This document shows positions 30,683-47,687 of a stretch of DNA of 64,000 nucleotides, in pieces; positions within the stretch are counted from its first letter, which is position 1, and every line of letters starts with the position of its first letter. The stretch is taken from NCBI RefSeq assembly GCF_014117425.1, contig NZ_CP059725.1, positions 2,542,001-2,606,000 on the forward strand, written 5' to 3'. The position numbers and the translations under genes were made by a program. Below the pieces are notes generated by a model, which saw nothing but the letters and a program-made list of their open reading frames with translations, did not search any database and was not told the origin of the DNA. Source of the DNA: Bartonella sp. HY038. Lineage in GTDB: Bacteria > Pseudomonadota > Alphaproteobacteria > Rhizobiales > Rhizobiaceae.

Positions 30683-32287
30683 CTAATCAAACCATGGATG
30701 GGCGCCAATAAGTTTATCGACAATGGCACGGGTTTGGGTGACGCTGCCAGCATGATAATCGGATATTTGCTGCATAGCTTCATCCACATATCGTACCAAG
30801 GCTTGACGTTTTTGTTCAGTCAACTCACGCTTAACGATATCGCCTTGCACTGCCACCTTATTGCCTTGATCTGTTGCAATTTGCACGATAGAATCGGTAT
30901 ATATCGTCACAAACATATCAAAATTTTCACGTTCACGCTTAAAGCGCGTCCTTGTGCTTTCCTTCAAGTCAGCAGGAAAATCAGGATCGTTTAAATTAGC
31001 ATAAAAATTATCAAGGGCGCGCGAGGCCAAATGTAATTCACGTGCCGACATGCCAGCATTAAAAATCGCGCGGCGTAAACTGCGATTTTCAACGTCATTT
31101 CGGCGTGTAAACTCGGTTTCCAAACGTGTACGCAAACCAGCAATTTCTGTTTTCAAAGGCCCTTCAATCCGCGCTTCAATTTCTTGCAATTGCATACTAG
31201 GTTGATTGGCGGCATCGCCCTCTACCTGCTTGCTTAGCTCTTTAAATGCCGCCTCTAAGCGCTCCACAGACGCTAAATCGCCAATCGATGGCGTGCTAAT
31301 CACCAATCGGAAACCAGCCGTGCGGCGGCGCATTTCACCTTTTGAATCTTGCGAAAAAAATGGATATTCATCACGACGAGACGATGTTAAAGTTTCTGGA
31401 TTATCTAAGAACGAACCACCGCGCACAACAAAACCACCAACTGCGCCATGCAAGCGATCAAGTCGGGTTAAGCGAAACGGATCAAGCATAATTTCTTCAG
31501 CATTTCCATAAAGATCATAAAGACCAAGAGGATTAGGATTTTTTTGGCCAATTGGCTTTGCTTTACCGCTTGCTGATTGTGCGCCATTATACCAAGCATA
31601 ATCATCAATAGAGCCATTGGTAAAGAAGCGGCTATTGCTACGTTCGGCTGCACTAACCGATAGGCCTCCACGGGTGGCAAATTCCCACTCGACTTCGGTT
31701 GGTAGGCGTACATAGCCGTTTTGTGCGCCAATTGCAGTTAGCTGGGCTAGATCATCTTTATAAAGCCAAGCATTTAAACGGCGGGTAAATTCCACCGCAT
31801 CATACCAACTAATACCAGTTTCAGGTAATGCATCAGGCGGCCCCATACGGGTTGGACATTTTTCGGGACTATCTGCCATCACCGCTTGATATTGCGCATG
31901 GCTAATTTCATATTTTCCCATTAAAAAGAAGTTGCCGCGCTCATTAGTTAATGCACCACTAATATGCTCTTCACGGCGATATTCCATATAAGCGCGCTCA
32001 CCTTCAGTTGCTCCAAGGCTTACTGGACTGTCGCTCAAAGGTGCACTGGCAGAATTTTCGTCCATAACCACTGTTTGTACGGCACGAAATACAAGTTTGC
32101 CATCACAGGGCAAGTCAATGACAACATCGCCATCGGCAGGCTTTGGATTCCAAACGCGCGGTGTCCATTCAGCAGAAAGTGCAGTGCCGCTTAAAGCTCC
32201 CCAAGATAGGGCAGCAATACCGATAGCAGTAACACGGTGACGCCAAGATTTGAACGATGAGAAAGTGGGATTAAATTTATTCAGCAC
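30683..32287 (-). CDS. Secreted formylglycine-enzyme-like protein (TagR-like)
   Basis: This is a 534-residue periplasmic protein. GTG 32287 is preceded by GGGAGGGG and overlaps the upstream permease gene; the longer frame starts at 32308. A signal peptide covers about 1-40 ('IGIAALSWGALSGTALSA'). The FGE-sulfatase (SUMF) domain spans about 90-320: 'YEISHAQYQAVM', 'GISWYDAVEFTRRLNAWL', 'VRLPTEVEWEFATRGG', 'YGNAEEIMLDPF', 'RGGSFLDNP'. The two catalytic cysteines of true formylglycine enzymes near the 'RGGS' strand are absent, so it is probably a binding or scaffold protein. The C-terminal 200 residues are helical and coiled-coil-like. Last gene of the srf run, beside TagS- and TagT-like genes as in the type VI regulatory locus. 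Confidence 0.82.
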   Translation of the reverse strand: MLNKFNPTFSSFKSWRHRVTAIGIAALSWGALSGTALSAEWTPRVWNPKPADGDVVIDLPCDGKLVFRAVQTVVMDENSASAPLSDSPVSLGATEGERAYMEYRREEHISGALTNERGNFFLMGKYEISHAQYQAVMADSPEKCPTRMGPPDALPETGISWYDAVEFTRRLNAWLYKDDLAQLTAIGAQNGYVRLPTEVEWEFATRGGLSVSAAERSNSRFFTNGSIDDYAWYNGAQSASGKAKPIGQKNPNPLGLYDLYGNAEEIMLDPFRLTRLDRLHGAVGGFVVRGGSFLDNPETLTSSRRDEYPFFSQDSKGEMRRRTAGFRLVISTPSIGDLASVERLEAAFKELSKQVEGDAANQPSMQLQEIEARIEGPLKTEIAGLRTRLETEFTRRNDVENRSLRRAIFNAGMSARELHLASRALDNFYANLNDPDFPADLKESTRTRFKRERENFDMFVTIYTDSIVQIATDQGNKVAVQGDIVKRELTEQKRQALVRYVDEAMQQISDYHAGSVTQTRAIVDKLIGAHPWFD

Positions 32288-33470
32288 GTAGAGCCCCTCC
32301 CGGTGCAACAGTCACAAAACGCCATGCCGATAGCGCGGTGACGATGAGAATAAGGAACATGGTTGCCAAGCCTGCAGCAACAAGCTGAATTGGCTCCAAA
32401 TAACAATTGGCCGCACCACTGGCAAGACCAAGAGAAAATCGACTATTGATAAAATCTGCAAGACCCAAATAAAGTCCCATTGCGGTTAGAAGCCCAATGA
32501 GGCCAGTAGTTAAACCAAAACCGGCAACGAACCAAAATATTGTTGCTCGCGATCCCCCCATAAGGCGCAAAAGCGCAATATCACGGCGATGCTTGTCAAA
32601 CACACCTAAAATACTGGCACTTGCTGCACCAAAATAGGAAATGATCAGTAGGCTTGCCACCACGGCAATAATGCCATTTAATGCTTTTTCGATAGAAACC
32701 AGCTTTTCAACATCAGCCGCCCGCGAGCTTACCGGATAGCCTAGATCCTCAATCGATTGGGCTAATTTGGGCACAAATTCAATTTGCTTGGCATAAAGAC
32801 GCAGATTAGCATGGCGCAAATGCCGTTCACTTATGGGGCGACCAGCAAGCTCTAAGCGATCAATCGCAAAACCATCAAGAAATGACTCAACTTCTTCAAC
32901 CAATGTGGCATTGACAATCGCCTGACTGCCTGATGCTTGCGCGGCATCAATGAGCCCAGTAATTCTTAATTTTTGCACCAATGTTAGCCGATCGCTTTCA
33001 CGTTGCGTTCGTAAAATTACTTCATCGCCAATTGCCACTTTTAAACTATCGGCAACACGTTTTGAAATAACCGTTTCACCTAACTTTGGTGGTGCAACAT
33101 TTTGCGGTAAAAGTGGATCTCCCTCGCCGCCCGGCAATAGCGAGATCGCCTCCCGCCCACCGTGACTTGCAGGTGATAGCCAAGCGCGCGCTGCAAGGCC
33201 GCGCGTAGTTGGTTGAAAAAAGCCAACGCCTTCAAGCCCTTTAATCTTAGCAAGTTCTGCAACTCCCAAAGGATGATCACCAATGAGTCGTATTTCAAGA
33301 TTGCGTGGGTCGTTGCGCAACTCATTAACAAGCGCGGTCAATGTACCACTTTTTAGCCCCCATAAGACTAGAATGGGGGCAAGCATAGCAGCAAGCACCA
33401 AAAGCGATAAAAATGCTCCGCGTGGATGGCCAAAAATTGTGCGAAGCCCTAGATAGAAGCCAAGCCTCAT
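32277..33470 (-). CDS. FtsX-family ABC permease (TagS-like)
   Basis: This 397-residue inner-membrane permease has the MacB/LolC topology. One helix near 18-38 is followed by a large periplasmic domain (about 40-260), then three helices (about 265-285, 312-335, 365-388). 'FDKHRRDIALLRLMGGSRATIFWFV' is the typical coupling segment of FtsX-like permeases. These do not transport small solutes but transmit ATPase action to the periplasm or move lipoproteins. It overlaps the ATPase gene by 4 bases. The adjacent FGE-like and VWA genes make a TagS identity likelier than LolC. Confidence 0.87.
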   Translation of the reverse strand: MRLGFYLGLRTIFGHPRGAFLSLLVLAAMLAPILVLWGLKSGTLTALVNELRNDPRNLEIRLIGDHPLGVAELAKIKGLEGVGFFQPTTRGLAARAWLSPASHGGREAISLLPGGEGDPLLPQNVAPPKLGETVISKRVADSLKVAIGDEVILRTQRESDRLTLVQKLRITGLIDAAQASGSQAIVNATLVEEVESFLDGFAIDRLELAGRPISERHLRHANLRLYAKQIEFVPKLAQSIEDLGYPVSSRAADVEKLVSIEKALNGIIAVVASLLIISYFGAASASILGVFDKHRRDIALLRLMGGSRATIFWFVAGFGLTTGLIGLLTAMGLYLGLADFINSRFSLGLASGAANCYLEPIQLVAAGLATMFLILIVTALSAWRFVTVAPGGALRAE

Positions 33471-34207
33471 ACCTGCACCTCGCTTGTTGTGTCATATAAA
33501 ACCGCTTGCGAAAAACCAGGTTTGATATTTTCGCGCTCAACCTTTACCAAACTAAAGCCATGACGCGTTGCCAAGCTAACATCATGGGTAATCATTACTA
33601 TGGCAGTGCCAGTATGCTCGGCAACACTGGTAATCATCTCCATGCAAATATTGGCGGTTTCATCATCCAATGCACCAGTTGGTTCATCACACATCAAAAA
33701 CGCCGGCCGATGAGCAAGCGCACGAGCAATCGCTGTTCTTTGTCTCTGCCCTATCGACAAATCCTTGGGACGAGCATCGCCATCATTACCAAGTCCAACT
33801 GCTTGCAAAAGCGCCATGATATAATTATCATCGCGCCGCCCTGCCAATTTTTGCTGAACGGCAACATTTTCCTTAACCGTCAAAAAAGAAAAAAGCGGGC
33901 TAGTTTGTACAACATAGCCGAAAAGATGGGCACGCAATTGCGCAAGCCTTGCATTTTCGCGGCGAATAGCTTTGGCACTAACATCAATTGTGCCAAACTC
34001 ATCGCCAATAAGTTCGAAATAATCAGATGTTTGTGGGCGGCTAGCAAGAGCCAATAAATCCATTGCAGTTGTTTTGCCTGATCCCGTCGCCCCAACAATT
34101 GCTTTTTTATCGCCTTCTTGTAGCGAAAATGAAGGAATATGAAGACAAAAAGAACGCTCACGATCAGTGAGCGTTTTTGTCATGTTTTCAACAACAATAC
34201 GAGCCAA
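33467..34207 (-). CDS. ABC ATPase, LolD type (TagT-like)
   Basis: This 246-residue cytoplasmic ATPase has Walker A 'GATGSGKTT' (39-47), signature 'LSIGQRQR' (150-157; the usual second-position Gly is Ile), Walker B 'FLMCDEPTGALDD' (170-182) and switch His 'MITHDVSLATRHG'. The 'DEPTGALD' form is that of LolD/MacB/FtsE-type partners of FtsX permeases. Its stop overlaps the permease start (ATGA), and the VWA gene ends 37 bases upstream. Confidence 0.9.
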   Translation of the reverse strand: MARIVVENMTKTLTDRERSFCLHIPSFSLQEGDKKAIVGATGSGKTTAMDLLALASRPQTSDYFELIGDEFGTIDVSAKAIRRENARLAQLRAHLFGYVVQTSPLFSFLTVKENVAVQQKLAGRRDDNYIMALLQAVGLGNDGDARPKDLSIGQRQRTAIARALAHRPAFLMCDEPTGALDDETANICMEMITSVAEHTGTAIVMITHDVSLATRHGFSLVKVERENIKPGFSQAVLYDTTSEVQV

Positions 34208-34244
34208 AACAATGTCCTTAATTTGTTACCATAAAGGCAAAGGA

Positions 34245-36266
34245 TCACGGTAAGCGATCAAGTGAAATAGTTGTGACGAACTCACCAGCCGCAGCATCAG
34301 ACTGCAATTGCAACCAAGCATTTGGATCATTGTGCACCCGCTCATAAAAAGCAAGCTTCGATTTTAAGTCCAAAATACGATCGCGCTGCTGAGAGGCTGG
34401 CATTTGTACCCAATCCTCAGGGGTAAGGTTAAGAATTTGACTGGTATAGGGTAAACCTTCCAAATATTCGCCAAAAGCATCCCCAAGCGGCGCATCAGCT
34501 GCCAATTGCCGTGGATCATTAGAAGCACGCGCCGCCAAATCACGAATATCACGGAAAAATTCCATCGGATCGCCGCTCATAACCTCACTGCGATTAACAA
34601 TAGTGCGTAACGTTTCAGATAAGGTTGAAAGTTGGTTTTTGGTGAGCATGATACGAATATCAAGGGCTGGTTTAATAGCCGGCTGGTCAAAGTCACGATC
34701 TATCGTCCAAGCCTCATAAAAAGCTGGTGCGGCCGCATTTTCGCGCCGTCCTAAAAACTCAAGTTGCATGGCGCGGCTCGCGCGCGCAATTTGCGCCGGT
34801 GCTGAATTATCATCTTCAGCCGGTGCTTCAGTTAAACGACCAGCAGCAATATTGTTTAAATCGGTTACAATTTGGGTCGCGGCTGGGCGAATTTGATCAA
34901 TAAACCCTGATACATCGGTCGTCGTAATTGGCGTATAAAGGGTACCACCGGCAATACGCGACAAGCGGCGATAGGCATCTTCGGCATATTGATGGTCGCG
35001 TGCGCCTTCAGGGGTACGCACATGCAAGGTAGTGATGCGGATACCTTTTTTGCGGGCTAACTCATTAATTTCGTCAACAAACAAAGAGCCCGCAAAATTA
35101 TCGCCATGTTCTGGTTTTCTTGGACCTGCGTCTGTAATCAAGATCATATATTTTAAATCAAACGCATCCCAATCGCCGGCCTCAAGCCCTGCAAATACAC
35201 CGCCAAGGGCATCTTCATTAATACCTTGGGTTGAGCGAGTTGCCGTTTTCATTTTGCTAATTTCAGTTACAAAATCATCGGCGGTGGCAGTTGGCGTCAA
35301 ACGCTGAAATACTTTGACATGATAGCCAATACCGCGATTGGTTGTCTCATTTTGGCGAAAGCCAATAAGTCCAAAATTAATTGGCTTACCTGAATCTTCA
35401 ATATCGCCCTTCAAGGTTAAAACGGCATCACGCGTTGCATCAATATAAGGCTGCATCGAAATGGTTGTATCAATGACAAACATCACGCCAGTTTTAGGCT
35501 GTTGATTGCCAGCTTGCTGCGCATTTGGATCATTTGCCGGTTGGTTAGGTGAATTGGGGTTTTGCTGCCCCTGATTTTGTGCAGTTGCCGGTGTTTGCTG
35601 AGATTGCTCGCTTTGAGTAATCGAACCAACCCCTAAGAATGTGCCTTCTGCATCATCATGCAACCATCCTTTTTCAAAATCCAAAATAGGCAAGAGATAA
35701 AATTTTTCATCAATTGACGGAATATTTTCAGGCTCCAAAGCGATAACTGGACTACCTTGTTGCCCTGGATTTTGACGAAGGGCTGCAATTTTTTCTTTAA
35801 CGTCACTTGCACCAATCACATTAACAAGCTTATTTTTATCTGCAAAGAAAAGCTGCCTTTGGCGACCAACTTCGACGCGATTATTAAAAGCTGCAACAAT
35901 TGAGTGTTTCCAATCGACCGCAAATTCTTGTTTTATCCAACCCTGCGTTGCGCCGCGGCTATTACCTGCCACTTCCAAAACACCATTTTGACGAGCAAAA
36001 ACATAATAAATTTCAAAGGCAGGTAATGGCTTACCAGCGCTATCGGGTGAATTGCTTTTCGGCAACAAAATTGCGCCCGGCTTAGTGACGATGCGTTGAT
36101 AAAGGGTTTGCCGCCCTTCTTGCTTTAAAGCTTCACGGTCAGCATTTTGCGCATTAACCTGCGTCAATGACAGTATTGCAACGAGCAGGCTTACAAGCGC
36201 AAGACCTACGAGGCGACCCAAATATTGAACATAATTTGGCGCTAAAGAGCGAAAAGCATGGTTCAT
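34245..36266 (-). CDS. Secreted VWA protein resembling the PpkA periplasmic region
   Basis: This 673-residue protein has an N-terminal signal or anchor (about 17-40, 'ALVSLLVAILSLTQVNA'). An SH3-like domain (about 50-115) reads 'RIVTKPGAILLPK' then 'LPAFEIYYVFARQNGVLEVA' and 'TQGWIKQ', the pattern I know from the region before the VWA domain of type VI kinase PpkA. A Gln/Asn/Pro linker precedes the VWA domain (about 258-460) with MIDAS motif 'DTTIS'. A helical C-terminal region follows. No kinase domain is present. It overlaps the upstream gene by 4 bases and precedes TagT-, TagS- and TagR-like genes. Confidence 0.83.
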   Translation of the reverse strand: MNHAFRSLAPNYVQYLGRLVGLALVSLLVAILSLTQVNAQNADREALKQEGRQTLYQRIVTKPGAILLPKSNSPDSAGKPLPAFEIYYVFARQNGVLEVAGNSRGATQGWIKQEFAVDWKHSIVAAFNNRVEVGRQRQLFFADKNKLVNVIGASDVKEKIAALRQNPGQQGSPVIALEPENIPSIDEKFYLLPILDFEKGWLHDDAEGTFLGVGSITQSEQSQQTPATAQNQGQQNPNSPNQPANDPNAQQAGNQQPKTGVMFVIDTTISMQPYIDATRDAVLTLKGDIEDSGKPINFGLIGFRQNETTNRGIGYHVKVFQRLTPTATADDFVTEISKMKTATRSTQGINEDALGGVFAGLEAGDWDAFDLKYMILITDAGPRKPEHGDNFAGSLFVDEINELARKKGIRITTLHVRTPEGARDHQYAEDAYRRLSRIAGGTLYTPITTTDVSGFIDQIRPAATQIVTDLNNIAAGRLTEAPAEDDNSAPAQIARASRAMQLEFLGRRENAAAPAFYEAWTIDRDFDQPAIKPALDIRIMLTKNQLSTLSETLRTIVNRSEVMSGDPMEFFRDIRDLAARASNDPRQLAADAPLGDAFGEYLEGLPYTSQILNLTPEDWVQMPASQQRDRILDLKSKLAFYERVHNDPNAWLQLQSDAAAGEFVTTISLDRLP

Positions 36267-37456
36267 TGGCAGTAATCCTGAAAGGTTGTGCGTTCATCCG
36301 CTGTACCAGAATAGCGTTTTTCACGTAAATTATTGCAAAGACGGGTTATATTTTCACGCATGGTAGCATCTTGCTCGGCCAATTTGGTCCAGCTTTCAAA
36401 AGCACGGCGAATATTGGGAGGTGTTATACGATCATTGCCGGTGGCATCTGATGTTGGATCATTAGCCTTGGCATACCACTCAAGTGCTGCACGATTGCCT
36501 CTTTCACCAGAACGATAAATTGCTTCAAAACCAATATCAGTATTGCCACCCTCATCATTACGTAAAGTCCGGCCAAGATCAAAAAGTCGCTGCGGATCAG
36601 TATCAGGTGCGGTGATAAGTGCGCTCCAGCCATCAGGGCCAAGCGCAAAATCTCGTTGAACCTGTGTTTGCTCAACGACTGGCTCTGGTGTTGTTGGATC
36701 TGGTGTTGTTGGATCTGGCGTTACTGGTGGTTCTTCTCCACCTGTAACGGGCGGTGTTGCCGGTGAACCACCCGCAACCTGTTCTGTGTTTTGATTTAAA
36801 AATGAACTATAGATAAAATATCCACCAGCAATGATAGCAACACACGCAATAAGACCAATTATCACAAAAGGCACAACCATTGATTTTTTCTTTGGCACAT
36901 TGGCACCAAAATTATTTTGGCCAGCAAGAGCAGCATTTACCGCACGTTTAACATCTTCATTCTTTGGATTTTCATCGGTTTGCGGTTGCCGAGGTGCGCG
37001 CGGTGTCTCCTCAAACATTTTAATCTCAGGCTCTGGTTCCGGCTCATCCTTTGACTGAGGTGCTGTCGGCTCTGGTTCAAAAACCGGCTCAATCTTTTGC
37101 GCTATTTTTGCTTTGCCGCCATCAACCACACTGTTTCGGCTCTTTTTAGGAGCCGGTGTCACAGGAGGCCAAAATGCAAAAAATGCAACCTTACCAGCCT
37201 TTACGGTTACGGCTTCACCATCAAGGACATAATCCACCACATCGGGCCCAAGCAAAACACGTGCGCCACTCGCCATTGGGTCAATTTGTATAGGATCAAT
37301 ACCAAAAGATTGCGCCTGCCAACCATTGGGCCCTAGATTACCTGCAGTATCGGAGTCGCGTGTAATATAAATGACTGCATCCTCAGCAATAGGTTCATCG
37401 AAAATCAACCATGCATGACCGGGGCCAAATTCCAGAGCGGCAATGATCTCAGCCAT
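36263..37456 (-). CDS. Single-pass membrane protein of the srf run
   Basis: This is a 397-residue protein of unknown family. ATG 37456 directly follows GAGGAAAAA; the frame opens at 37471. The N-terminal domain (about 1-105) is beta-rich ('HAWLIFDEPIAEDAVIYITRD', 'KVAFFAFWPPV'). A Glu/Pro-rich linker, one membrane helix (about 192-218, 'VVPFVIIGLIACVAIIAGGYF'), a Pro/Thr/Asp linker with the repeat 'PDPTTPDPTTPEP', and an extracytoplasmic helical domain (about 270-397, with Cys pairs) follow. The topology suits a connector between the cytoplasmic SrfB/SrfC and the periplasmic VWA protein, whose gene it overlaps. Confidence 0.72.
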   Translation of the reverse strand: MAEIIAALEFGPGHAWLIFDEPIAEDAVIYITRDSDTAGNLGPNGWQAQSFGIDPIQIDPMASGARVLLGPDVVDYVLDGEAVTVKAGKVAFFAFWPPVTPAPKKSRNSVVDGGKAKIAQKIEPVFEPEPTAPQSKDEPEPEPEIKMFEETPRAPRQPQTDENPKNEDVKRAVNAALAGQNNFGANVPKKKSMVVPFVIIGLIACVAIIAGGYFIYSSFLNQNTEQVAGGSPATPPVTGGEEPPVTPDPTTPDPTTPEPVVEQTQVQRDFALGPDGWSALITAPDTDPQRLFDLGRTLRNDEGGNTDIGFEAIYRSGERGNRAALEWYAKANDPTSDATGNDRITPPNIRRAFESWTKLAEQDATMRENITRLCNNLREKRYSGTADERTTFQDYCQ

Positions 37457-37593
37457 TTTTTCCTCTTCCACATTAATTTTAAAGATGACAAATCTTAAAA
37501 TAAGTTTGCCTATTACAAATACAAGTTACCCAAACTGTAAAGACCTTTCCATTTGAAAATGGAAAATAGTTTTTTACGCACAGTAATTTAACT

Positions 37594-37634
37594 TATACTC
37601 TGCTCATTTTAAAACCTTAAATGTACAGAGTATA
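37594..37634. repeat. Covarying hairpin A of the srf run
   Basis: TATACTCTG (37594-37602) and CAGAGTATA (37626-37634) form a 9-bp stem. The loop begins CTCATTT. Related hairpins lie at 43705 and 43818. It occupies the gap between srfC and the next gene; no T run follows it on either strand. Confidence 0.75.
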
Positions 37635-37718
37635 GTGGTTTTCTAATTATTCATCTTTTGTATTTGTTTTTAAGCAAATCAAATACAAGCATCATAATTT
37701 AAAACTATGCAACAATCG

Positions 37719-40418
37719 CTATTCGACTGGATGCAACGCATCAATAATTCGCCCCAAAGCGGCATTTTGTTCGATATCTATGGTTAAACCCTCTTCACTT
37801 TTAGCATTATCACTGGCAAGTGCCATAAAGGCAATCGCCCAATCTTCTAGCGTCGTCAAATAGGGTGTTGCAGGCTCAAGACCAATATTTTTTGCATTAA
37901 ACGGTGATGGACCATGATCAAAGACAATGCGTGGTGGCTCGGCATAGTCATTTTTGGGTCGCTCATTCTTTTCCATGAGTGAAGCGCCTAGATCGGCGAT
38001 AAAGCGATTAAGAAAACGCTCACTCACCAAAGCGGCTTTAGAAATTTGCTCATCACGGCGATCAACAAAGGCAACCCGTTTGATGGTTTCCGCCATAATA
38101 TCAGGCATTTTTAGGCGTTTAGCAGCAAAAACAATATCATCAACCATTTCGCGTAAGTGGTTAGGATCCATCTTAGTTTCAATCAAGAAATGCGGATTAT
38201 CAACTTGGCGATAAAGATGGCTTATCCAAGTTGCTATGGCTGCACTAACAAATTTCCCCTCACGGCGATTATTGGCGCTAGTCTCAACTGGTACCGCATC
38301 ACCACTCTCATCGCCCGTATTTTCTTTTTTCTCCCATGGACGCAAGCGGCGCGGCGCGCTTGGTGCTGCCACCGCATCCTGGCTAATAGGGTGGCGATCC
38401 ATTTCAATCAAGGCTTCATAAAGCTGATCGGTGATGCTAGCATTATCAAGCATTAAACCACGAAGCAATGTACCAAAACGGTGATAGTTTTCCTCTGCCG
38501 TATAAAGAGCGTCGACCACATTGCGTGCAATTTCTTCACGCTCTGCTAAGCGTTTGCCAAGATCTGTTGTTGTATAAAATGGCTTTAATATTGCTAATAA
38601 ATCCATATTTAACTTGTTAAGGCGGAAAGCAATTTGTTGATATTTTATCTCTGGGCGACAAACGGGGGCAAGGCTTTTAGCAATATAGCTCGCACCGCCA
38701 TCATTAACCCGCATCATTTCATCAAAGGCAGTTTGTGGGTCGTTAAAATGCTCTTGCACATAATCGGTTTCTAAAAACCCATCACGCAATTCTTTGACCC
38801 AATCCTTACGGTCTTCGCGTATATCCACCTCACGCCCACCATCAAAGGTAAACATATCGGCATTCATAACATTGGGATTACGCATTAAAAACATATTGCG
38901 AAATGGCTCATTCGGTGTCCATTGTTTGACCCATGAATCGGGGCTTGAACCAAAAGGCTTAATCAATGATGCCATCATCCGCCCTTCAAACCGCGTTTTT
39001 AACCCCATGGAAGAGTCATTGGCCTTTTTTTCAAAATGCATATCAAAACGGGTTAATACAAAGTATAATAGTGGCGGTTTACCAATACGTTCATTTGGCC
39101 GCGCACCATGGGTGGTTGCAATCCAATTGGCTGCAACATCGGCAAGCTGATTAACATCTAGATTGCTTTCTTTAACGCAAAACAGCATGGCGGTAATATC
39201 TTGCTCATTGCAGTAACGTTGAAAAAGATATTCAACCTTACCGCGCAAAATAAGCGAAGCCATGGTTTCGCGCGGCGCTTCGCTTAAAAAACGCGCTAAA
39301 CCTTTTGTGCCGCCTTCATCATCTTCGCCGCTGCCTTGCGGCAAACCACGGGTTCGATAGCCGGGAAAATCGAGCAAATCCGTATGCTCGAAAAAAGGCC
39401 AAGGATTATCAGCAAGGTTAATCAATAGTTCGGCAGTAAGGGCGGTAATAATCGGCTTATTGAGCGAAACAATTTTACCATTTGGCGTTGCTACATCAAG
39501 CTTAACCGCGTCTTCTTCAATAATATCGCTTAAGGTTTCAACATCAAGGATAGATTGCTGGTCTTCTGCTGAAATATCAATAGCACTAAACGGCACAAAT
39601 ACTTCTTCAGCAAAATTCAAGCTTTGCAAGCTTTTTACAAGATTAAGATAAACATCGCTGATTGCCTGATGACGACCCCATAAAAGCGATAAAAATTCTG
39701 CGAGTTTTGGCAAACTAAGACGCGGCGCAATATCTGCTGCAACTACCCAAAATGAGCCAAGACGTTTGGTTAATTCAAACTCGGCAAGGGTCTTGTTAAA
39801 ATATTCTTCCAAGCCCCAAATATCTTCAATGGTAAGACCATTAGGCTCGCCACTATCACCTGCACTTTGTACCGCCTTATTACGAAAAGGCGCAAGAAAA
39901 GCCTTAATTTCATCTTCTGTTGGCCAAGTCTCATATCGCCCTGGTTGACCATCAAAAAAATAAGCATTGGCAAAAATCTTGATAAGATCGGCATGGCTTA
40001 ACAGCCGCAAATGCACAGGAAAACCATCGGGAGCAGCTTTTGGATCACGAATAGTAAAGCGGGTTACAAGACCGGTTGCTTCTTTACCGCGATCTGGATT
40101 AATCGTTGTAATATAATTAACTGGCTTGTCCATACCTTGGAAACGCGCCATTAAAGCGTCGCCCTTACGGGCTAGCACTGAAATCAAGTGTGATTTTCCC
40201 ACTTGGCTTGCACCAAATACCGCAACCGCCATTGGCCGGCGAGCAGCTTTCGATAACTGACCAGCATTAACAATACCAAGGCGCAAGGCGCGCTCAAGAC
40301 GGGCTGCTTGATCGCCAACCAATGCGCGATTATTAGCCTTTTGCAACCAATCAAGCGCCGCACGTGCAGTCTCTTTGGTGGTATCGGCTGCCAAGCCCAA
40401 ATTTTCATTCGCCTTCAT
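37719..40418 (-). CDS. srfC: SrfC-family large GTPase-like protein
   Basis: This 899-residue cytoplasmic protein is of the 'virulence factor SrfC' family. The N-terminal GTPase-like domain has a P-loop 'GASQVGKS' (69-76), a G3-like 'DFPG' near 344 in 'TDLLDFPGYRTRG', and a G4-like 'TRFD' near 453. This layout and the long helical remainder recall dynamin-like or YfjP-type GTPases. The first 60 residues are helical. Srf names come from Salmonella, where srfABC are SsrB-regulated; the biochemical role is not established to my knowledge. It follows srfB after 113 bases. Confidence 0.85.
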   Translation of the reverse strand: MKANENLGLAADTTKETARAALDWLQKANNRALVGDQAARLERALRLGIVNAGQLSKAARRPMAVAVFGASQVGKSHLISVLARKGDALMARFQGMDKPVNYITTINPDRGKEATGLVTRFTIRDPKAAPDGFPVHLRLLSHADLIKIFANAYFFDGQPGRYETWPTEDEIKAFLAPFRNKAVQSAGDSGEPNGLTIEDIWGLEEYFNKTLAEFELTKRLGSFWVVAADIAPRLSLPKLAEFLSLLWGRHQAISDVYLNLVKSLQSLNFAEEVFVPFSAIDISAEDQQSILDVETLSDIIEEDAVKLDVATPNGKIVSLNKPIITALTAELLINLADNPWPFFEHTDLLDFPGYRTRGLPQGSGEDDEGGTKGLARFLSEAPRETMASLILRGKVEYLFQRYCNEQDITAMLFCVKESNLDVNQLADVAANWIATTHGARPNERIGKPPLLYFVLTRFDMHFEKKANDSSMGLKTRFEGRMMASLIKPFGSSPDSWVKQWTPNEPFRNMFLMRNPNVMNADMFTFDGGREVDIREDRKDWVKELRDGFLETDYVQEHFNDPQTAFDEMMRVNDGGASYIAKSLAPVCRPEIKYQQIAFRLNKLNMDLLAILKPFYTTTDLGKRLAEREEIARNVVDALYTAEENYHRFGTLLRGLMLDNASITDQLYEALIEMDRHPISQDAVAAPSAPRRLRPWEKKENTGDESGDAVPVETSANNRREGKFVSAAIATWISHLYRQVDNPHFLIETKMDPNHLREMVDDIVFAAKRLKMPDIMAETIKRVAFVDRRDEQISKAALVSERFLNRFIADLGASLMEKNERPKNDYAEPPRIVFDHGPSPFNAKNIGLEPATPYLTTLEDWAIAFMALASDNAKSEEGLTIDIEQNAALGRIIDALHPVE

Positions 40419-40531
40419 GCTACTTACCTATTGCAAGTGGTTTTAACCAAAGCCAATTAAAACCACGATAAAACAACTATAATCTTTTGTGACGAAATAT
40501 TGCGTTTATTTAAAGTGCAATATTTCACATT

Positions 40532-43500
40532 TTATAAAACCGTTAATGTGCCAGAATCCAGCCAATATTCACTTGATTTATCATCAAGCTGCAAAGTACA
40601 GAATGTCAAATTGATGGAACGGCGTACATCACCGCCATTAGCATCCCATGCTTCTCTAATAGTCAGCTCTTCTTTAGATGCCTCTTGTTCTAACACCGAC
40701 GCACTATCGCCGCTTTCGTCCTCTTGCACCTCGCGAGCAATGGTGATTTCAATAGGACGGGGAACATTGCCAGCTCCTTCATCAATCGATAATTGATAAA
40801 GCGGATTGGTAATCCAGCGTTGCAATGGCAATTGCCTAAACCCTAGCCGCGCACGTGTGTAAATTTTTAACTTATGCTCGGCTTCAACAGCGCCATTTTG
40901 CTGTAATTCTTCAGCTGTAAACAACACCCGTGATTGCTCAAGAACGCCATCACTACCAAGTTCACCAATATAGGCAGCAGTAGAACGCATTTGCAATTTA
41001 TGGGTTTGCAAGCTGAAATTTACAATTGAACCTTCGGCTAAAGCACAAAGCATTGCGCCAACAACAGCGGTGGTTTTAGGATCACCAATCGTCACATCAC
41101 TGCGCGAGCGGAATGGATACCAAATATCAACCCGATACCGATGTAGTGGTTGTATCTTATCAGGAGTAACGGCAAGGCTATTTTCCAAATATTCGTGAAT
41201 AGCCGGCAAACGCGATGGCCTACCTGAAAGCAATACCTTATCACAATCAAAATGGCTAATGGCTTCACTTAAGCAATCAAGCGCGATTTGCAACGTTTCA
41301 TTGATTGCCGAGCGTAAACGCTGGAAATCAAGATCAATTGGTGTGTCGCCAATATTAAAATCAACCGCGCCGCCGGCACGTGCTGCTTCATGAACATAAG
41401 CAAGGTCAAGATAATTATCTTTAAGTAAAGCTGGCACCAATTCATCAAGACGCTTGGTATGAATGGCTTCATAGCGGTCTTGCCCAGATTCTTCATAGGC
41501 TGACATAAGCCCAAGGGCTGCTGGCATTAGAACTTTAATCACCGTTTCGCGGCGCTGATCCTTAATCTGCTCGGCCATATTGGAGCGGTCACCACCAAAA
41601 AGCTCATTTAAAATGGCGCGTGGGTTACCTGCCCCACATGCGCTTAATTGACGTGAAATTGCCGGTAAAATTAACCGCTCAATCACCGATTTTGTAATAT
41701 CATCACCAGCAATACCAATGCCTTCACGGAAAGTTTGCACAGGAACCAAAGCGCGATCATCATTTTGATAATAGGTGGTAATCATCAAATCCGATGTACC
41801 GCCGCCAATATCAATACTGGCAATACGTAATGATGGTTCAAGCGGTGTATCTGGCTTAGGCTCTTGCCCCGCTTCAAAACGTTGGCGCGGCTTACCGAAC
41901 AGATCAAAATATTCAACAATACGTCCACCAAAGCGGCGACTTATTTCGCTATAGAGCCAAACAAATTGAACACAGGTTGCCTCATCCCATGATACTTGTA
42001 CCGTTGGGCGAGCAAGGCTTGGGCTTGAAGATTGATGCCAATCCATCAACTCCCATAAAAGATTAACCGCTCCTTCAACCCGCGAGCGCATAAGCCGTTG
42101 TTCAAGCGTTGGCAAGGCTGATGGCAAGGTCATAATCACGCGGCGCAAACGGCGCGGTGCATTGCTTTGCTTACGTTCGGCACGCACTTGCGGATTATTA
42201 ATCATAGCAATGGCTTGAAATAGAATTTCAGCAATCATTAAAGAATAAAGCGATGAGCGCGAATAGGATAAAGCCGGACTTGGCTGCATTAATTCGCTAT
42301 CACTTCTTTTGCCATAAAGCCGCTTATATAAAGCACGATCTTTGCGTATTTGCGAAATCACATCGCCATTGCGGTTTAAAAACCGCCGCACGATGCGGCT
42401 AATTGGCGGTGCAGCACCATCAGCCAAATATTGCGAAGCTGGAAAACGCCAAGACTGGTTAACTTCTTGCACATCCCATAAATAGCGTTTTGGGCTAGAT
42501 ATACCACCAACAGCGGCAGTACCGCCCTTGATTGCGCGTAGGCGCGATGCTTCTGGCCCAACCCGCACAACACCTGGCCATAGGAACGCCCGTTGCCGCC
42601 CCGATAGACGTGACAATATATCATCACCAAAGGTGGCTTGTGAAAACTCGATATTACTGTCAAAAGGTTCACTATATTGCAATTCTGGACGCTCAAGATC
42701 ACGTAAAGACAAAATCATCGAATTATTAAGATCGACATTATCCTCATTAGGGTAATTCTCAATCAGCAAACCGCAAGTACGGCTATTACCAATATCAAGA
42801 ACGAGGTCAACATCAACCGGCCGTACATGGGATTGCCCTGAAATTGTATCCATAAAGCGCACTTTTGGAATCGTGCAACCAATGCCCAATAATTCAATAA
42901 AAGTAAACCAACGCGCCGCATGTTCAAGCGCAAAACGCCGATCACTCTCGCGCAGTTTGCGGCCTAATTCTGTTTCTCGATGGGCAACAAAAAGATTTTC
43001 AATCCAGCTTAAAGCCCAGCTTTGAAAATCCATTTCCTCGCCGCTAATTGGGTGCTTGCGTGGGTCGCCCAAAAACCAACCATTGCGGCTAATCATGCTT
43101 ACCAGAGAAAATTCTTGCGGATTAAGAATATCATTGGCAATGGGTGCCGTATAAGGCCATGGTCGTGATTGTGGATCGCCACTACCGCCGCCATGCTGTT
43201 CCACCGCTGTATCAAAGGCAAAAACCGCCATATGCGAAGGTGCATCTGCATCATCGCTATGCGGTGCTTTAATAACCCTCACCCGCGACCAATTGGTTGG
43301 GCCAGTGTCATAATTTTCTAAACCATTAGCATCACGTCCTGGCAATGCCCGTAAAAACGGCAATGGTACCCATTGATTTAAAAATGGTTCCAAGGCTTTA
43401 TTTTTATTGACCGAATATTCCTCATCACCCTCTTCGCTAAAATAAGGCGCATCTGCTTGCGGATCAATTTCATTCCAGCCTGGAAACAGCCGGAATACCG

Positions 43501-43639
43501 GTTTACCGTCACTACGCACTTCCATGCGCTTTTCAATAAAAGGCCGATCAAAACGGCTAATTTTATCAAAAGCAAAAGGCAGCGTTACAAATTGAATACC
43601 GCTGTTTGGAACAAGAACAATATCTTTTGGCTCGATCAT
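40532..43639 (-). CDS. srfB: SrfB-family actin/Hsp70-fold ATPase
   Basis: This 1035-residue protein is of the 'virulence factor SrfB' family. Three nucleotide-site motifs of the actin/Hsp70 superfamily are visible. Phosphate-1 is 'DVDLVLDIGNSRTCGLLIEN' near 276-295, phosphate-2 is 'SIDIGGGTSDLMITTY' near 603-618, and the adenosine motif is 'DKVLLSGRPSRLPAIHEYL' near 797-815. The N-terminal 270 residues and the C-terminal 150 (beta-rich) are family-specific. It is preceded by a 224-base gap with two hairpins, so it may also have its own promoter, and is followed by srfC as in other srf loci. Confidence 0.88.
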   Translation of the reverse strand: MIEPKDIVLVPNSGIQFVTLPFAFDKISRFDRPFIEKRMEVRSDGKPVFRLFPGWNEIDPQADAPYFSEEGDEEYSVNKNKALEPFLNQWVPLPFLRALPGRDANGLENYDTGPTNWSRVRVIKAPHSDDADAPSHMAVFAFDTAVEQHGGGSGDPQSRPWPYTAPIANDILNPQEFSLVSMISRNGWFLGDPRKHPISGEEMDFQSWALSWIENLFVAHRETELGRKLRESDRRFALEHAARWFTFIELLGIGCTIPKVRFMDTISGQSHVRPVDVDLVLDIGNSRTCGLLIENYPNEDNVDLNNSMILSLRDLERPELQYSEPFDSNIEFSQATFGDDILSRLSGRQRAFLWPGVVRVGPEASRLRAIKGGTAAVGGISSPKRYLWDVQEVNQSWRFPASQYLADGAAPPISRIVRRFLNRNGDVISQIRKDRALYKRLYGKRSDSELMQPSPALSYSRSSLYSLMIAEILFQAIAMINNPQVRAERKQSNAPRRLRRVIMTLPSALPTLEQRLMRSRVEGAVNLLWELMDWHQSSSPSLARPTVQVSWDEATCVQFVWLYSEISRRFGGRIVEYFDLFGKPRQRFEAGQEPKPDTPLEPSLRIASIDIGGGTSDLMITTYYQNDDRALVPVQTFREGIGIAGDDITKSVIERLILPAISRQLSACGAGNPRAILNELFGGDRSNMAEQIKDQRRETVIKVLMPAALGLMSAYEESGQDRYEAIHTKRLDELVPALLKDNYLDLAYVHEAARAGGAVDFNIGDTPIDLDFQRLRSAINETLQIALDCLSEAISHFDCDKVLLSGRPSRLPAIHEYLENSLAVTPDKIQPLHRYRVDIWYPFRSRSDVTIGDPKTTAVVGAMLCALAEGSIVNFSLQTHKLQMRSTAAYIGELGSDGVLEQSRVLFTAEELQQNGAVEAEHKLKIYTRARLGFRQLPLQRWITNPLYQLSIDEGAGNVPRPIEITIAREVQEDESGDSASVLEQEASKEELTIREAWDANGGDVRRSINLTFCTLQLDDKSSEYWLDSGTLTVL

Positions 43640-43704
43640 TAGGTGTGCTTCATTCTGTTTTAATTGTTAAATCCGAATGGTGATACGGAATAAAATAATA
43701 TTCT

Positions 43705-43746
43705 TATACTTTGTTCATTTCAAATCCTAAAAATCTGCAAAGTATA
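43705..43746. repeat. Covarying hairpin B of the srf run
   Basis: TATACTTTG (43705-43713) and CAAAGTATA (43738-43746) form a 9-bp stem, with a loop starting TTCATTT. It is related to the hairpins at 37594 and 43818, with paired changes in the stem. Confidence 0.75.
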
Positions 43747-43817
43747 TATCTTTTTATCAATGGTCGCTTTTTTCCACTTGATTTTCAACCTTAACCAAAT
43801 GCGCTTTTGATAAAAAA

Positions 43818-43854
43818 TATACTCCGTTCATTTAAATGGAATTCACGGAGTATA
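43818..43854 (-). terminator. Covarying hairpin C, terminator-like, after the DUF2135-type gene
   Basis: TATACTCCG (43818-43826) and CGGAGTATA (43846-43854) form the stem; the loop contains TTCATTTAAATG. On the minus strand a T-rich run follows, 10 bases after the stop codon of the upstream gene. It is probably a partial terminator that lowers srfB expression relative to the first two genes. Confidence 0.7.
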
Positions 43855-43863
43855 ATTGTTCAA

Positions 43864-45573
43864 TTATGGATTGGTAATGACATAAATTTGCCTTGGGCTA
43901 CGACGACGCGAGCCATTGGCAACACCATCAATGATCTTATCCTCAACTTTGGACTCGCCAGTTTGCGGATCCACAATCGTTTTACGAATACGCAAACGGA
44001 AAGGCGTATTGGGACGCGGATCACCATGATTGTCATAATAATCTACATAGACAGGAATCTTTGGCGGAATCTTTGATGGATCACTCCAATAGATATTTTC
44101 AACCGGCTCACGCGATAGCATATCGGGGCGTTGGTTGGCATCACGGTCAAGCGTTGCGCCACAACTTGAACGGCGTTTAAAATAAACGCGCGTGCCATTG
44201 GGACAGCGGATTGATAAGTCAAGATCAGATTTGCCCTTCCAGATAAGGGTAATTTGCAATGCACCCGTTCTTACCCCTGCCCGATTAATCACATCATCAA
44301 GTTCACGCTGACGCTCAGTTTGCTGTGGTTGTTCGGGTGTTTGTTCAGGCTCTGCGGGCTGTTCAGGCTCAGCAGGTTGTTCTGGCGGCGTTGGCTGAGG
44401 AGGTGTTGGTTGCTGCGGAGTTTCTGGTACTGGTACAGGAACAATTTCCACACGCTGCTCCGGCGCATTACCGCCATTTTGTGGCATAATAATTGTAATA
44501 TTAGGTTGCCCATTATTGGGCCCAGAACCATTGTTGCCACCATCATTACCGCGATCAGCACGTTGTTCTGGCTGGCCATTGTCAAATGGATTTCTACCAT
44601 CATCCGACCTTGGATTGCCATTGCGACGATTATTTGCAGGTGGCTCATTGGCTGCTTGCTGCTCAATACATTCTTGCTGCCTTTTGCGGGCTTCATCTTC
44701 AAGGTTGGTTATTTCCTTGTTTAAATCAGCAATTTTTTGCAAGCTCGGATCGTTTTCACTACCAATTTCAACCTTTGGTCCATTGACCACTGTGCTCCAA
44801 CGGTTAAGCGCCGACGAACTCAATAAAAGCCAAATGAAAATAAGGGCAAGCAAAGCACAAAGCAGCCAAAAAATAAGTGCAAGCCAATTAAAGGGGCGTT
44901 TTGCAACAACGCTATTATGATGATAGGTGGTTGTATGCACCACATGTTCAACATTATGGGTTTGTTGCGATTGGTTTGTTTGCGGCGCATTTGTTGGTGT
45001 TGATTGTGCAACGGTTGGTTGACCTGCCGTTGGCTGCTCTGCATTAACTGGCGCAGGGCTTGGTTGTTCAACTGCCTGACTACTACGCACCTGAGCAGCA
45101 GTACCGGCGGTGCCAACGGCTGTAAGCCCCATGGATCGCTGCTCGTTTTGCGCCGAAACATAGCCCCAGCCAACGAGTACTGGCTTACCATCAACATCAT
45201 AAAGCCAACCGCTATCTGGCGTAATCATCGCATTGCGCAAAGCCTTAGCAATTTCCTTATCACCACGCGATCCTTGCTCAAGACGGTTTGCCAAAGTAAT
45301 CACCGACATTTTGCGGCTTTCAGCCGCGCTTAGCAATGCCGATTTGCTTTGTGGGTCGAGCTCTTCCATGGGTTGTGGGCGGCTATTGGCATTAACATAC
45401 CAATCAACCTGTGCACCATTACCTGAAGGGATAGGTTCTGCCAAAAAATTGGCATAATCATTGCCAAGCTCGCTCACCAAGCGGTCAGTCAATAAGGCAT
45501 GATCACGTTCACTAACTGGACCAACAGGGCGTAAATTATTAAGCAGAGTTATTGCAAGACGAATATTGTTCAT
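43864..45573 (-). CDS. SrfA-like membrane protein with DUF2135-like C-terminus
   Basis: This 569-residue protein has an N-terminal cytoplasmic domain (about 1-140) with 'VDWYV' (56-60) and 'DVDGKPVLVGWGYV' (126-139), the two marks I recall from SrfA proteins. One membrane helix follows (about 224-246, 'WLALIFWLLCALLALIFIWLL'), then a short coiled coil (about 264-295), an Asn/Gly/Pro/Glu linker with 'PTPPQPTPPEQPAEPEQPAE', and a C-terminal beta domain (about 435-569). 'GALQITLIWKGKSDLDLSI', 'CPNG' and 'ATLDRDANQ' in that domain resemble DUF2135. Its ATG overlaps the protease gene's stop by 4 bases. Confidence 0.75.
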   Translation of the reverse strand: MNNIRLAITLLNNLRPVGPVSERDHALLTDRLVSELGNDYANFLAEPIPSGNGAQVDWYVNANSRPQPMEELDPQSKSALLSAAESRKMSVITLANRLEQGSRGDKEIAKALRNAMITPDSGWLYDVDGKPVLVGWGYVSAQNEQRSMGLTAVGTAGTAAQVRSSQAVEQPSPAPVNAEQPTAGQPTVAQSTPTNAPQTNQSQQTHNVEHVVHTTTYHHNSVVAKRPFNWLALIFWLLCALLALIFIWLLLSSSALNRWSTVVNGPKVEIGSENDPSLQKIADLNKEITNLEDEARKRQQECIEQQAANEPPANNRRNGNPRSDDGRNPFDNGQPEQRADRGNDGGNNGSGPNNGQPNITIIMPQNGGNAPEQRVEIVPVPVPETPQQPTPPQPTPPEQPAEPEQPAEPEQTPEQPQQTERQRELDDVINRAGVRTGALQITLIWKGKSDLDLSIRCPNGTRVYFKRRSSCGATLDRDANQRPDMLSREPVENIYWSDPSKIPPKIPVYVDYYDNHGDPRPNTPFRLRIRKTIVDPQTGESKVEDKIIDGVANGSRRRSPRQIYVITNP

Positions 45574-47687
45574 TGTGCATTCCCCTGTTGGTTAGAAGAT
45601 TGATTGCCCGAATTGGTTGACGGCCGAGTTGACTGATCGCTTGATGGTTGATTTGAAGATTGGCTACCATTGGCTGCCCCGCTACCTGCAGGTGGCGTAG
45701 AAGGTGTAGTTCCGGTTGCAGGACTTTGCGTACCGCCATTAGCACCACCACCAGATGACGGCGCCGGACTTGCAGGTGGATTAGCTGGACCATTATTACT
45801 ACTACCTGTTGTAGGCGCTGCATTACCACTTGTGCTTGGCTGTGTTGACGGTTGTCTGGCATCTGGTGTTGCAGTATTTGGTTTTGCATTGTTCGGCTGC
45901 GCATTGGGTGCCGCCGGGCTGGTTGGCGCAGCCTCGCCATTGGTTGCACCCTCACCATTGGTTGTTGGCGCGGCTTGCGCTACAGCAGGCTGTTGCGCTT
46001 GCGGATTGCACTGGGTATCATCAAATTTAAAAGCCACATTGGAGCGCTTTAAAAAGCTGGTCAAGGTACTGGTGCGCTGTGCAAAGCTTAATGGAGAATT
46101 TTCTGAACCGCCAGAGCGCAAAAATGTATTAACCCCAACAGCACGGCCACAATAATCGATGAGTGGCCCGCCACTATTACCGCCAGAAATTGCTGCAGTA
46201 TGCAGCATTAATTCCAAACCTTCAATGCCTTGCTGGAAAGTGGTTACCATGCCTTGCGTTACCGCCATTTCAGGAGCGGCAGTCGCATCACCGCGCAACA
46301 AGCGATGAAATACTGTGTCGGTTTCCATAATAATACCAGGGAAGCCTGCAGCAATAACACTTTCACCCTTGGCGGTTTTTCCAGCAATAGCAAGCACTGC
46401 AGGAGCGCGGGCACCGCTTACTCTTAAAACAGCAAAATCAGGAGCGCCGATTTGCGCTTCACCGCGCGAGCGGGCGACAACTTTGGCATCAATCGTTTTA
46501 CCAAGCTCCTTATTAATAATTTTAACATTTTGAGCTTCACCAACCACATGCAGATTGGTTAAAATATCAGTTTCATTGATAAAGAAACCCGACCCCATAC
46601 TGCCGCCTTCATCGCTATCATCTTCCACCATAATGAGAACGGTTGCCTTTTCGGCATGGGCAATTGGTCCACTGGTTGGCACAACCAACGCGCCAGAAAT
46701 ATCTGGCAATGGTAAATTAGGGTCAATCGCGCTAATTACGCCATCACCATTATTACCTGATCCACCACCTTGGGCACGGCCTGCCGATTGCGGGCTAGCT
46801 TCAGGCATTGGGCAACTAAAACCACTTAAACCTTTTTTTAATTCATCACGGCGTGTTTCCAACAAAGCAATAGCTTCATCTTTTTCAGTTGATGAAACCT
46901 TAATCCCAAGATTGCCAGCCGGCAAAAAATAAACTAGCAATAGAAGTGCAATAAGAAAAAGAAAAACCCCAGAGAAAATAAGCGGTAATAAAAAACCACC
47001 TCTTGATGGCGGTGCGGTGACATATTGATGTGTCTCATGCACTCTTGTTGCATCTGGATTATGGTTTTGGGCATTTTGGCTTACTTGCGAGCCTTGATGC
47101 TGATTGCCATCATTTGCAGCCACTGTCTGGCCTCCTATCAAAGGGGTGGAAAGATCGCTATCAGTGTTATGAAAATGCAAAACAGCCTTAACACCAATCA
47201 CATGACCTAATCCATTATTAAAATGATTTATGCGTGTCTTTTCGTCTTTACTAATGGCTTTTGGTAAAAGCCCCCAATTAGTCAATATTGGGCGATTGGC
47301 TACCAATAATAAATCTTGATTAATATCAGCAATGTTAAACCAACGCTCTACAATTGGAAAAAGAGGCGTTGCGGCAAAAATAGTCAAAATATTTTGCCAT
47401 TCTTTTTGCAATTCTTGGGCAACCCTTGCTTTTGTGCCCTCATCAAGATCTAGCCAGGCAATGGCATTACCATGCTCGTTGCAATACCAAGAAACAACAT
47501 CACCACTATTATCACGCGTTTCACTAATAAAGGGTTTTGCAAAAATAAAATGACTAATTCCAGCACTATGGCGAGAAAAATAGGCCTCCACCTCATCAAA
47601 GGAATGAACAACAGCTTTTCCTTCAAAACAGGCATAGTCAAACTCTTGCAAATTATTACTTTTTAAAAAGCAGTTGAAATTATCCAT
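45570..47687 (-). CDS. SrfA-like membrane-anchored trypsin-like protease
   Basis: This 705-residue protein is the first gene of the run. The N-terminal domain (about 1-175) carries 'VVSWYCN' (64-70) and 'NRPILTNWGLLP' (131-142), matching the SrfA-like domain of the next gene. A membrane helix lies at about 231-255. The extracytoplasmic S1/HtrA-type domain (about 345-540) has an intact triad: His380 in 'LTNLHVVG', Asp417 in 'APDFAVLRV', Ser505 in 'GGNSGGPLID'. There is no PDZ domain. Two Cys (in 'IDYCGRAVGV' and 'DTQCNP') may form a disulfide. The last 145 residues are low-complexity Ala/Pro/Asn/Ser/Gln. Confidence 0.82.
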   Translation of the reverse strand: MDNFNCFLKSNNLQEFDYACFEGKAVVHSFDEVEAYFSRHSAGISHFIFAKPFISETRDNSGDVVSWYCNEHGNAIAWLDLDEGTKARVAQELQKEWQNILTIFAATPLFPIVERWFNIADINQDLLLVANRPILTNWGLLPKAISKDEKTRINHFNNGLGHVIGVKAVLHFHNTDSDLSTPLIGGQTVAANDGNQHQGSQVSQNAQNHNPDATRVHETHQYVTAPPSRGGFLLPLIFSGVFLFLIALLLLVYFLPAGNLGIKVSSTEKDEAIALLETRRDELKKGLSGFSCPMPEASPQSAGRAQGGGSGNNGDGVISAIDPNLPLPDISGALVVPTSGPIAHAEKATVLIMVEDDSDEGGSMGSGFFINETDILTNLHVVGEAQNVKIINKELGKTIDAKVVARSRGEAQIGAPDFAVLRVSGARAPAVLAIAGKTAKGESVIAAGFPGIIMETDTVFHRLLRGDATAAPEMAVTQGMVTTFQQGIEGLELMLHTAAISGGNSGGPLIDYCGRAVGVNTFLRSGGSENSPLSFAQRTSTLTSFLKRSNVAFKFDDTQCNPQAQQPAVAQAAPTTNGEGATNGEAAPTSPAAPNAQPNNAKPNTATPDARQPSTQPSTSGNAAPTTGSSNNGPANPPASPAPSSGGGANGGTQSPATGTTPSTPPAGSGAANGSQSSNQPSSDQSTRPSTNSGNQSSNQQGNAQ

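Follow-up and report, generated by a model that had tools for sequence, protein, structure and literature searches.

A TagQRST/PpkA-like sensory module with a putative exchanged head encoded beside SrfB and SrfC in Bartonella sp. HY038

If a sensory module related to TagQRST-PpkA of the Pseudomonas aeruginosa H1 type VI secretion system (T6SS) is encoded together with srfABC, what might it act upon? The question is raised by a 64,000-nucleotide stretch of the Bartonella sp. HY038 genome (contig NZ_CP059725.1, positions 2,542,001 to 2,606,000; hereafter the window), in which positions 30683-47687 hold nine consecutive minus-strand open reading frames (ORFs). In the order of transcription they encode two SrfA-like proteins (1 and 2), SrfB, SrfC, a connector, a VWA protein, an ABC ATPase, an FtsX-type permease and an FGE-fold protein. 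Our analysis indicates that the connector corresponds to the cytoplasmic-transmembrane half of PpkA, with a head that, judged from sequence comparisons, is not a kinase. The features of the system are as follows, with lengths in amino acids (aa) and transmembrane segments abbreviated as TM.

3468..4175, plus strand: TagQ, outer-membrane lipoprotein with a glycine zipper, 235 aa, away from the operon (TagQ profile, E 3.9e-64)
30683..32308, minus strand: TagR-like secreted FGE-fold protein, 541 aa (FGE-sulfatase PF03781, 4.2e-33)
32277..33470, minus strand: TagS-like FtsX-family permease, 397 aa, four hydrophobic segments (PF02687, 2.7e-7)
33467..34207, minus strand: TagT-like ABC ATPase, 246 aa, with Walker A, signature and Walker B present (ABC_tran, 5.2e-23)
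34245..36266, minus strand: kinase-less PpkA (the VWA protein), 673 aa, with an N-terminal hydrophobic segment at 19-37 and a periplasmic VWA region (VWA_4, 1.3e-4, below cut-off)
36263..37471, minus strand: connector, with a predicted cytoplasmic beta-sandwich head at ~1-100, a disordered linker, one TM and a periplasmic Sel1-like domain at ~260-397
37719..40418, minus strand: SrfC, GTPase, predicted bacterial dynamin-like protein, 899 aa (Virul_Fac/SrfC PF10139, 4.7e-220)
40532..43639, minus strand: SrfB, putative actin/Hsp70-type ATPase, 1035 aa (PF07520, 1.1e-258)
43864..45573, minus strand: SrfA-like single-pass membrane protein 2, 569 aa, TM 233-251 (NF040486, 8.2e-23, below cut-off)
45570..47687, minus strand: SrfA-like single-pass membrane protein 1 with a C-terminal trypsin-type serine protease, 705 aa, TM 234-252 (Trypsin_2 PF13365, 1.1e-21; NF040486, 2.2e-4, below cut-off)

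An earlier reading of the same letters, made without database searches (the sequence-only reading), had listed these nine genes in this order, and the ORFs bear it out; it overlooked the protease on SrfA-like 1 (45570-47687) and TagQ (3468-4175), the latter inside the window and outside the range 30683-47687 that the reading gave for the locus. Of its product names, those of the FGE, FtsX, ABC ATPase, SrfB and SrfC families are upheld by Pfam; the SrfA names are weak, with NF040486 (SrfA) giving 81.5 bits for SrfA-like 2 and 20.8 bits for SrfA-like 1 against a cut-off of 150. Neither the connector nor SrfA-like 2 has a Pfam match.

The kinase-less PpkA and its connector

The VWA protein aligns at 33-35% identity, across ~95% of its own length, with kinase-bearing proteins of ~1014 aa, both scanned examples of which carry Pkinase at the N-terminus. 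Because of this near full-length alignment to kinase-bearing PpkA, we regard it as PpkA reduced to its periplasmic part, with no kinase, and the relation to PpkA first suspected from the letters thus holds. A variant of the metal site, DTTISM, is visible in its sequence. Among named database entries, the closest relatives are from Bartonella sp. LJL80 for the VWA protein (77%) and Bartonella sp. HY329 for the connector (81%). As the sequence-only reading had stated, the locus is devoid of a Ser/Thr kinase: Pfam finds none in the VWA protein or the connector, and the genome has one partial Pkinase match over the cut-off, on contig C4. Its claim that a T6SS is missing is also borne out as to TssC, which has no match in this 99.93% complete genome in a search with a positive Escherichia coli control (Fha and the other tss genes were not searched genome-wide).

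We then sorted the best 80 of 559 VWA relatives from named genomes by their neighbours within 10 kb; being the best 80 of 559, these loci are biased towards the window. They comprise 37 loci with Srf genes, 29 with T6SS genes and 14 with neither partner. As far as each locus reaches, a connector is present in 37/37 Srf loci, and a kinase or TssM/TssK in none of them (0/37 each). A kinase is found in 28 of the 29 T6SS loci, the exception (L036) having no more than 423 bases of its contig ahead of the VWA gene, and in 26 of the 29 it is fused to the VWA region. A split kinase occupies the position of the connector, immediately upstream of a VWA gene that lacks the kinase, in Inquilinus (L027, L052), Chromatiaceae (L019, L021, L022, L030) and Mesorhizobium (L016); those of L016, L019, L022 and L027 were tested with Pfam. 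The parts of connectors and split kinases that follow the TM align with an hhalign score of 126.6 (probability 99.4), or 122.6 without L016, as against a best score of 16.35 in 100 column shuffles. The earlier reading called this protein a membrane connector; its likely role as an exchanged PpkA head went unrecognised.

A profile of the adaptor head, comprising the first ~100 residues of the connector, matches in 44/44 connector-bearing Srf loci (as many as 31 of these 44 being in its training alignment), 0/29 T6SS loci and 1/16 others (L026). In loci from a sample at the level of the order it matches in 12/13, four of them with no VWA gene in view; two of these loci, L172 and L174, are probably the same records as L014 and L015, hence training records, and L176 has several genes in two frames. 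The adaptor is found beside SrfB/SrfC with no VWA gene in view in L178-L181 and L100. Those first four loci, of family f71 in the order sample, encode SrfB, SrfC and an adaptor-headed connector, and the stretch fetched for each contains neither a VWA nor a Tag gene; two of them (L178, L180) have next to the connector a further protein that bears charged repeats and ends in a Sel1-like region.

Mesorhizobium sp. BR1-1-16 (L016:7989-9953) encodes a natural chimera of a kinase head on a Rhizobiales-type connector: its C-terminal half matches the L013 connector at 5e-17 and that of the window at 1e-10, and its N-terminal half matches PpkA kinases at 6e-17. The VWA protein of this locus falls inside the Rhizobiales Srf clade of the VWA tree, and the genome gave one match to TssC and none to SrfB. 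Whole-genome searches of ten genomes in which no Srf genes adjoin the module yielded SrfB in 0/10 and TssC in 6/10, the six being exactly those with a split kinase; no control genome in this search holds SrfB, and the same search was positive in 13 genomes of the phylum sample described below. These are not ten independent and certain cases because four of the six are Chromatiaceae and completeness is not told.

In the VWA tree (87 rows) the fused-kinase clade of Pseudomonas falls among Srf rows, and a single clade of kinase-bearing rows is rejected (p of the approximately unbiased test 7.5e-25, 15 rows vs 46; the group was chosen after the first tree, and eight long-branch or cut loci and most Pseudomonas rows were dropped). 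Since the kinase-bearing rows do not form one clade, the PpkA-type head has probably been exchanged more than once. We claim no direction of descent, whether of Srf from T6SS versions or the reverse, because the root is uncertain and the 80 loci are those nearest to the window. A protein search with the connector alignment found 12 proteins out of 7,992 scored candidates, too few to be of use. In three further loci (L043, L067, L087) the module comes with only a short TM and Sel1 protein; neither a kinase nor an adaptor lies in these loci, and their genomes give no match to SrfB or to TssC. The VWA protein of an Anaerolineae metagenome-assembled genome (MAG; L059) is nearly identical to that of the alphaproteobacterial L051, and L059 is probably a misbinned contig rather than a system of Chloroflexota.

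TagQ, TagR, TagS and TagT

The TagQ-like lipoprotein is the sole match in its own genome at E<=0.01 to a profile of five tagR-adjacent TagQ proteins from related operons. It contains a Gly-zipper_Omp domain (3.3e-6), has Cys22 in a lipobox-like context and is 43% identical to the TagQ of L014. In Chromatium okenii a large TPS-type exoprotein gene (L019:16241-21802) stands directly behind tagQ. The order FGE-like protein, permease, ATPase, VWA protein is the tagR-tagS-tagT-ppkA order of the P. aeruginosa H1 locus, as had been noted from the letters. A phmmer search retrieves the counterparts beside ppkA of P. aeruginosa PA7 with the TagS-like permease (9e-36) and with the TagR-like protein (8e-48).

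The TagR-like protein has no Cys after its RGGS motif, and the same is true of all 31 motif-bearing sequences among 66 FGE relatives. We take the residue after RGGS to be the active-site position of FGE; lacking this Cys, the TagR-like protein is probably a binding protein rather than an enzyme.

The FtsX match of the permease, along with weak LolC and LolD-like matches, raises the alternative that TagS and TagT form an exporter of the Lol/MacB type and that the operon serves lipoprotein or peptide export with an accessory protease. In a quick tree of 113 rows (domains of <=180 aa dropped), comprising 83 from loci with a VWA gene (Srf, T6SS or neither) and 30 other ABC ATPases from three genomes, all 83 Tag-type ATPases (83/83) are separated from the 30 others, LolD among them, by a branch with a Shimodaira-Hasegawa-like approximate likelihood ratio (SH-aLRT) support of 98. 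The ATPase of the window thereby groups with the TagT of T6SS loci and is set apart from LolD; for the ATPase, the one of the pair placed on a tree, the clustering with LolCDE that would have told against the sequence-only reading was not found. Moreover, the genome has a separate LolC/E gene over the cut-off, with an adjoining LolD-like gene just under it. We accordingly hold the exporter explanation to be very unlikely.

SrfB, SrfC and the proposed output of the sensor

SrfB and SrfC match their own Pfam families over nearly their full length. The predicted structure of SrfC (predicted local distance difference test score 84.7) retrieves the dynamin-like proteins SynDLP (4.0e-8) and BDLP (2.4e-4) with Foldseek, and its GTPase motifs, G1 GASQVGKS at 69, G3 DFPG at 350 and G4 TRFD at 456, have key residues invariant in 32 sequences; SrfC is thus predicted to be a bacterial dynamin-like GTPase. 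SrfB contains segments (DxGN at 282, DxGGGTxD at 610 and SGR at 805), largely invariant in 30 sequences, that resemble the two phosphate motifs and the adenosine motif of the actin/Hsp70 ATPase superfamily and make it a candidate member. By hydropathy SrfB has only two marginal internal segments (1.62 and 1.67 vs a threshold of 1.6), and SrfA-like 1, SrfA-like 2 and the connector have one membrane segment each. The protease domain of SrfA-like 1 retains its triad (H380, D417, S505); such a trypsin-type protease is not universal among the 37 named Srf loci, being seen in 12, and many of the 37 are truncated ahead of this gene. Just past the neighbouring genes, at 49695-50795 of the window, lies a gene for a protein of 366 aa that has a single evident hydrophobic stretch and matches no Pfam family over the cut-off.

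Do the Srf and Tag halves belong together? Two samples of genomes bear on this. The phylum sample of 299 genomes has SrfB over the cut-off in 13 (one more below), a VWA gene at E<=1e-20 in 11 and TssC in 58. Both halves occur in six genomes, in five on a shared contig and in one (G114) on separate contigs; seven have SrfB alone and five the VWA gene alone. Of these five, four have a frame of 1017-1189 aa, which could accommodate a fused kinase, together with TssC, and G014 has neither. The order sample of 397 genomes has SrfB over the cut-off in 14 (four more below). Nine of the 14, the window included, encode SrfB, SrfC, connector, VWA, TagT, TagS and TagR, seven of the nine being from one genus; a further 4/14 have SrfB, SrfC and connector with no VWA gene in the fetched stretch, and in L177 the contig ends soon after SrfC. 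The two halves, whose rarity together would have spoken against the earlier reading, thus co-occur in 6/13 and 9/14 SrfB genomes. That they are two unrelated operons adjacent by chance could be argued from the 7/13 SrfB genomes of the phylum sample without a VWA gene and the 5/11 VWA genomes without SrfB; however, the named Srf loci repeat one core order, SrfB-SrfC-connector-VWA-TagT-TagS, to the extent that their contigs allow, and do so on several branches of the VWA tree, and a dedicated connector sits between the halves. Chance adjacency is thus extremely improbable.

The composition of the machine is well supported; the direction of the signal, the docking, membrane repair and the roles of SrfB and the protease we infer. 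The gene content points to SrfB and SrfC as the output, and of the envelope-sensing machine proposed in the sequence-only reading it is the homologies that hold, with the output suggested by that gene content. We put at about even odds the proposal that this is a sensor of envelope damage which, through its swapped head, brings in a dynamin together with an actin/Hsp70-like ATPase. Passages of work on P. aeruginosa report that physical or chemical damage to the outer membrane is sensed via TagQRST-PpkA and that PpkA dimerisation activates the response (PMC11881912); the pathway is also covered in passages of PMC6657622. By analogy, TagQ in the outer membrane, the pseudo-FGE TagR in the periplasm and the TagS/TagT ABC unit would sense damage to the outer membrane and act upon the kinase-less PpkA in the manner of their P. 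aeruginosa homologues, and the VWA protein would hand the signal to the connector. The small beta-sandwich head of the latter, replacing the kinase that phosphorylates Fha, would dock SrfC and/or SrfB, which are its likely clients because such heads are nearly confined to SrfB/SrfC neighbourhoods. Given the homology to the P. aeruginosa sensor, the connector heads should gather under the damaged site, where the cluster may nucleate the dynamin-like GTPase SrfC, which SrfB may load or remove in an ATP-driven manner. Most plausibly, a dynamin recruited to a damaged envelope, here as an SrfC/SrfB assembly, would remodel or seal the inner membrane; the two SrfA-like proteins may tie SrfB/SrfC to the periplasm, and the SrfA-like 1 protease may process a periplasmic substrate upon activation.

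Several observations weigh against this proposal. Sel1-like domains are common, so the profile match between connectors and split kinases could be partly generic. SrfC has no evident membrane-insertion segment by hydropathy, and the SrfB profile gives no match to solved actin or Hsp70. TssC occurs elsewhere in 3/6 phylum-sample genomes with both halves, so the adaptor head does not exclude a T6SS. A Phaeospirillum MAG (L026, 5315-8709) has an adaptor-headed connector and no SrfB or TssC match in its genome; the connector adjoins an Hsp70-family gene and a gene whose 626 aa product combines hydrophobic stretches with charged, coil-like regions, and these may stand in for SrfB/SrfC. In family f39, presumed to be enterobacterial, six loci (L101-L106) encode SrfA, SrfB and SrfC without a connector or Tag genes, from which it follows that SrfB/SrfC have some function independent of the sensor; another f39 genome (G296, L096) carries the full set. 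Finally, the phenotypes in passages of the literature are not repair: a swarming defect for Salmonella srf (PMC4219756) and cytotoxicity for SrfABC (PMC6950479).

The swarming phenotype suggests that the output might be a surface behaviour (swarming, adhesion, flagella), with the module reporting surface contact or envelope strain and SrfBC adjusting motility. We consider this unlikely: the sensor is missing from the six f39 loci that have plain srfABC, and a Pfam scan of 20 of the ORFs in the window turned up no motility gene (the other ORFs were unscanned). The reported cytotoxicity bears on a further alternative, namely that SrfABC is a set of secreted or injected toxins or effectors whose release is triggered by the Tag/PpkA module. 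Passages of PMC3608642 raise the possibility that PpkA triggers SrfC export, and in passages of PMC6950479 the Xenorhabdus SrfABC is reported to be cytotoxic, with genes for post-translational control of T6SS near srfABC. However, neither the missing TssC of the genome nor the want of TssM/TssK and kinase in the 37 named Srf loci, over the length of each locus available, fits such a release; SrfB and SrfC have no N-terminal hydrophobic segment, and the predicted fold of SrfC is that of a dynamin. It appears quite unlikely.

Returning to the damage-sensor proposal, its generalization is more tentative, and we place it somewhat short of even: PpkA-type sensors might have an exchangeable head, which as a kinase fires the T6SS and as a beta-sandwich adaptor engages a dynamin/actin-like pair for membrane repair. 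If true, SrfABC, long filed under virulence factors or toxins, would be a machine that responds to outer-membrane damage, and the tit-for-tat sensor of the T6SS would be one specialised use of a wider damage-sensing module.

Comparison with known systems

The association of srfABC with tagQRST/ppkA is not new: passages of a 2013 paper report it, mostly without T6SS, in host-associated Deltaproteobacteria, with T6SS machinery genes in only one of those genomes (PMC3608642). The locus described there shares with ours srfB, srfC, a Hap-like gene, tagQ and ppkA, along with tagRST in most genomes; however, its PpkA is described as a threonine kinase (PMC3608642), whereas here PpkA lacks the kinase, the connector would be the exchanged head and SrfC is predicted to be dynamin-like, none of which is put forward in those passages. 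What the present analysis adds is the unlinked TagQ, the protease of SrfA-like 1, the connector as a candidate exchanged head, heads that track their partners and the dynamin-like prediction for SrfC. Neither head exchange nor a dynamin fold of SrfC is the subject of a paper among the literature matches listed, with subscription journals and preprints outside the search. SrfB and SrfC still go by the name of virulence factors, with no agreed mechanism, and the predicted dynamin fold of SrfC, together with a partner-specific head on a homologue of the P. aeruginosa outer-membrane-damage sensor, makes the question directly testable. In practical terms, a TagQRST/PpkA-like gene alone should not count as evidence for a T6SS.

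With the TagQRST-PpkA system of the P. aeruginosa H1-T6SS the locus shares all four Tag proteins, the periplasmic VWA region and the tagR-tagS-tagT-ppkA order; it differs in the lack of a kinase domain and of TssC in the genome, in the unlinked tagQ and in the added connector. Plain SrfABC systems of Salmonella and relatives share the SrfB and SrfC families and, in the six f39 loci, are without connector, VWA and Tag genes, in contrast to the full set of G296. Bacterial dynamin-like proteins such as SynDLP, BDLP, LeoA and IniA share with SrfC the predicted fold and the GTPase motifs; unlike them, SrfC is encoded together with a putative actin/Hsp70-like ATPase and a transmembrane sensor.

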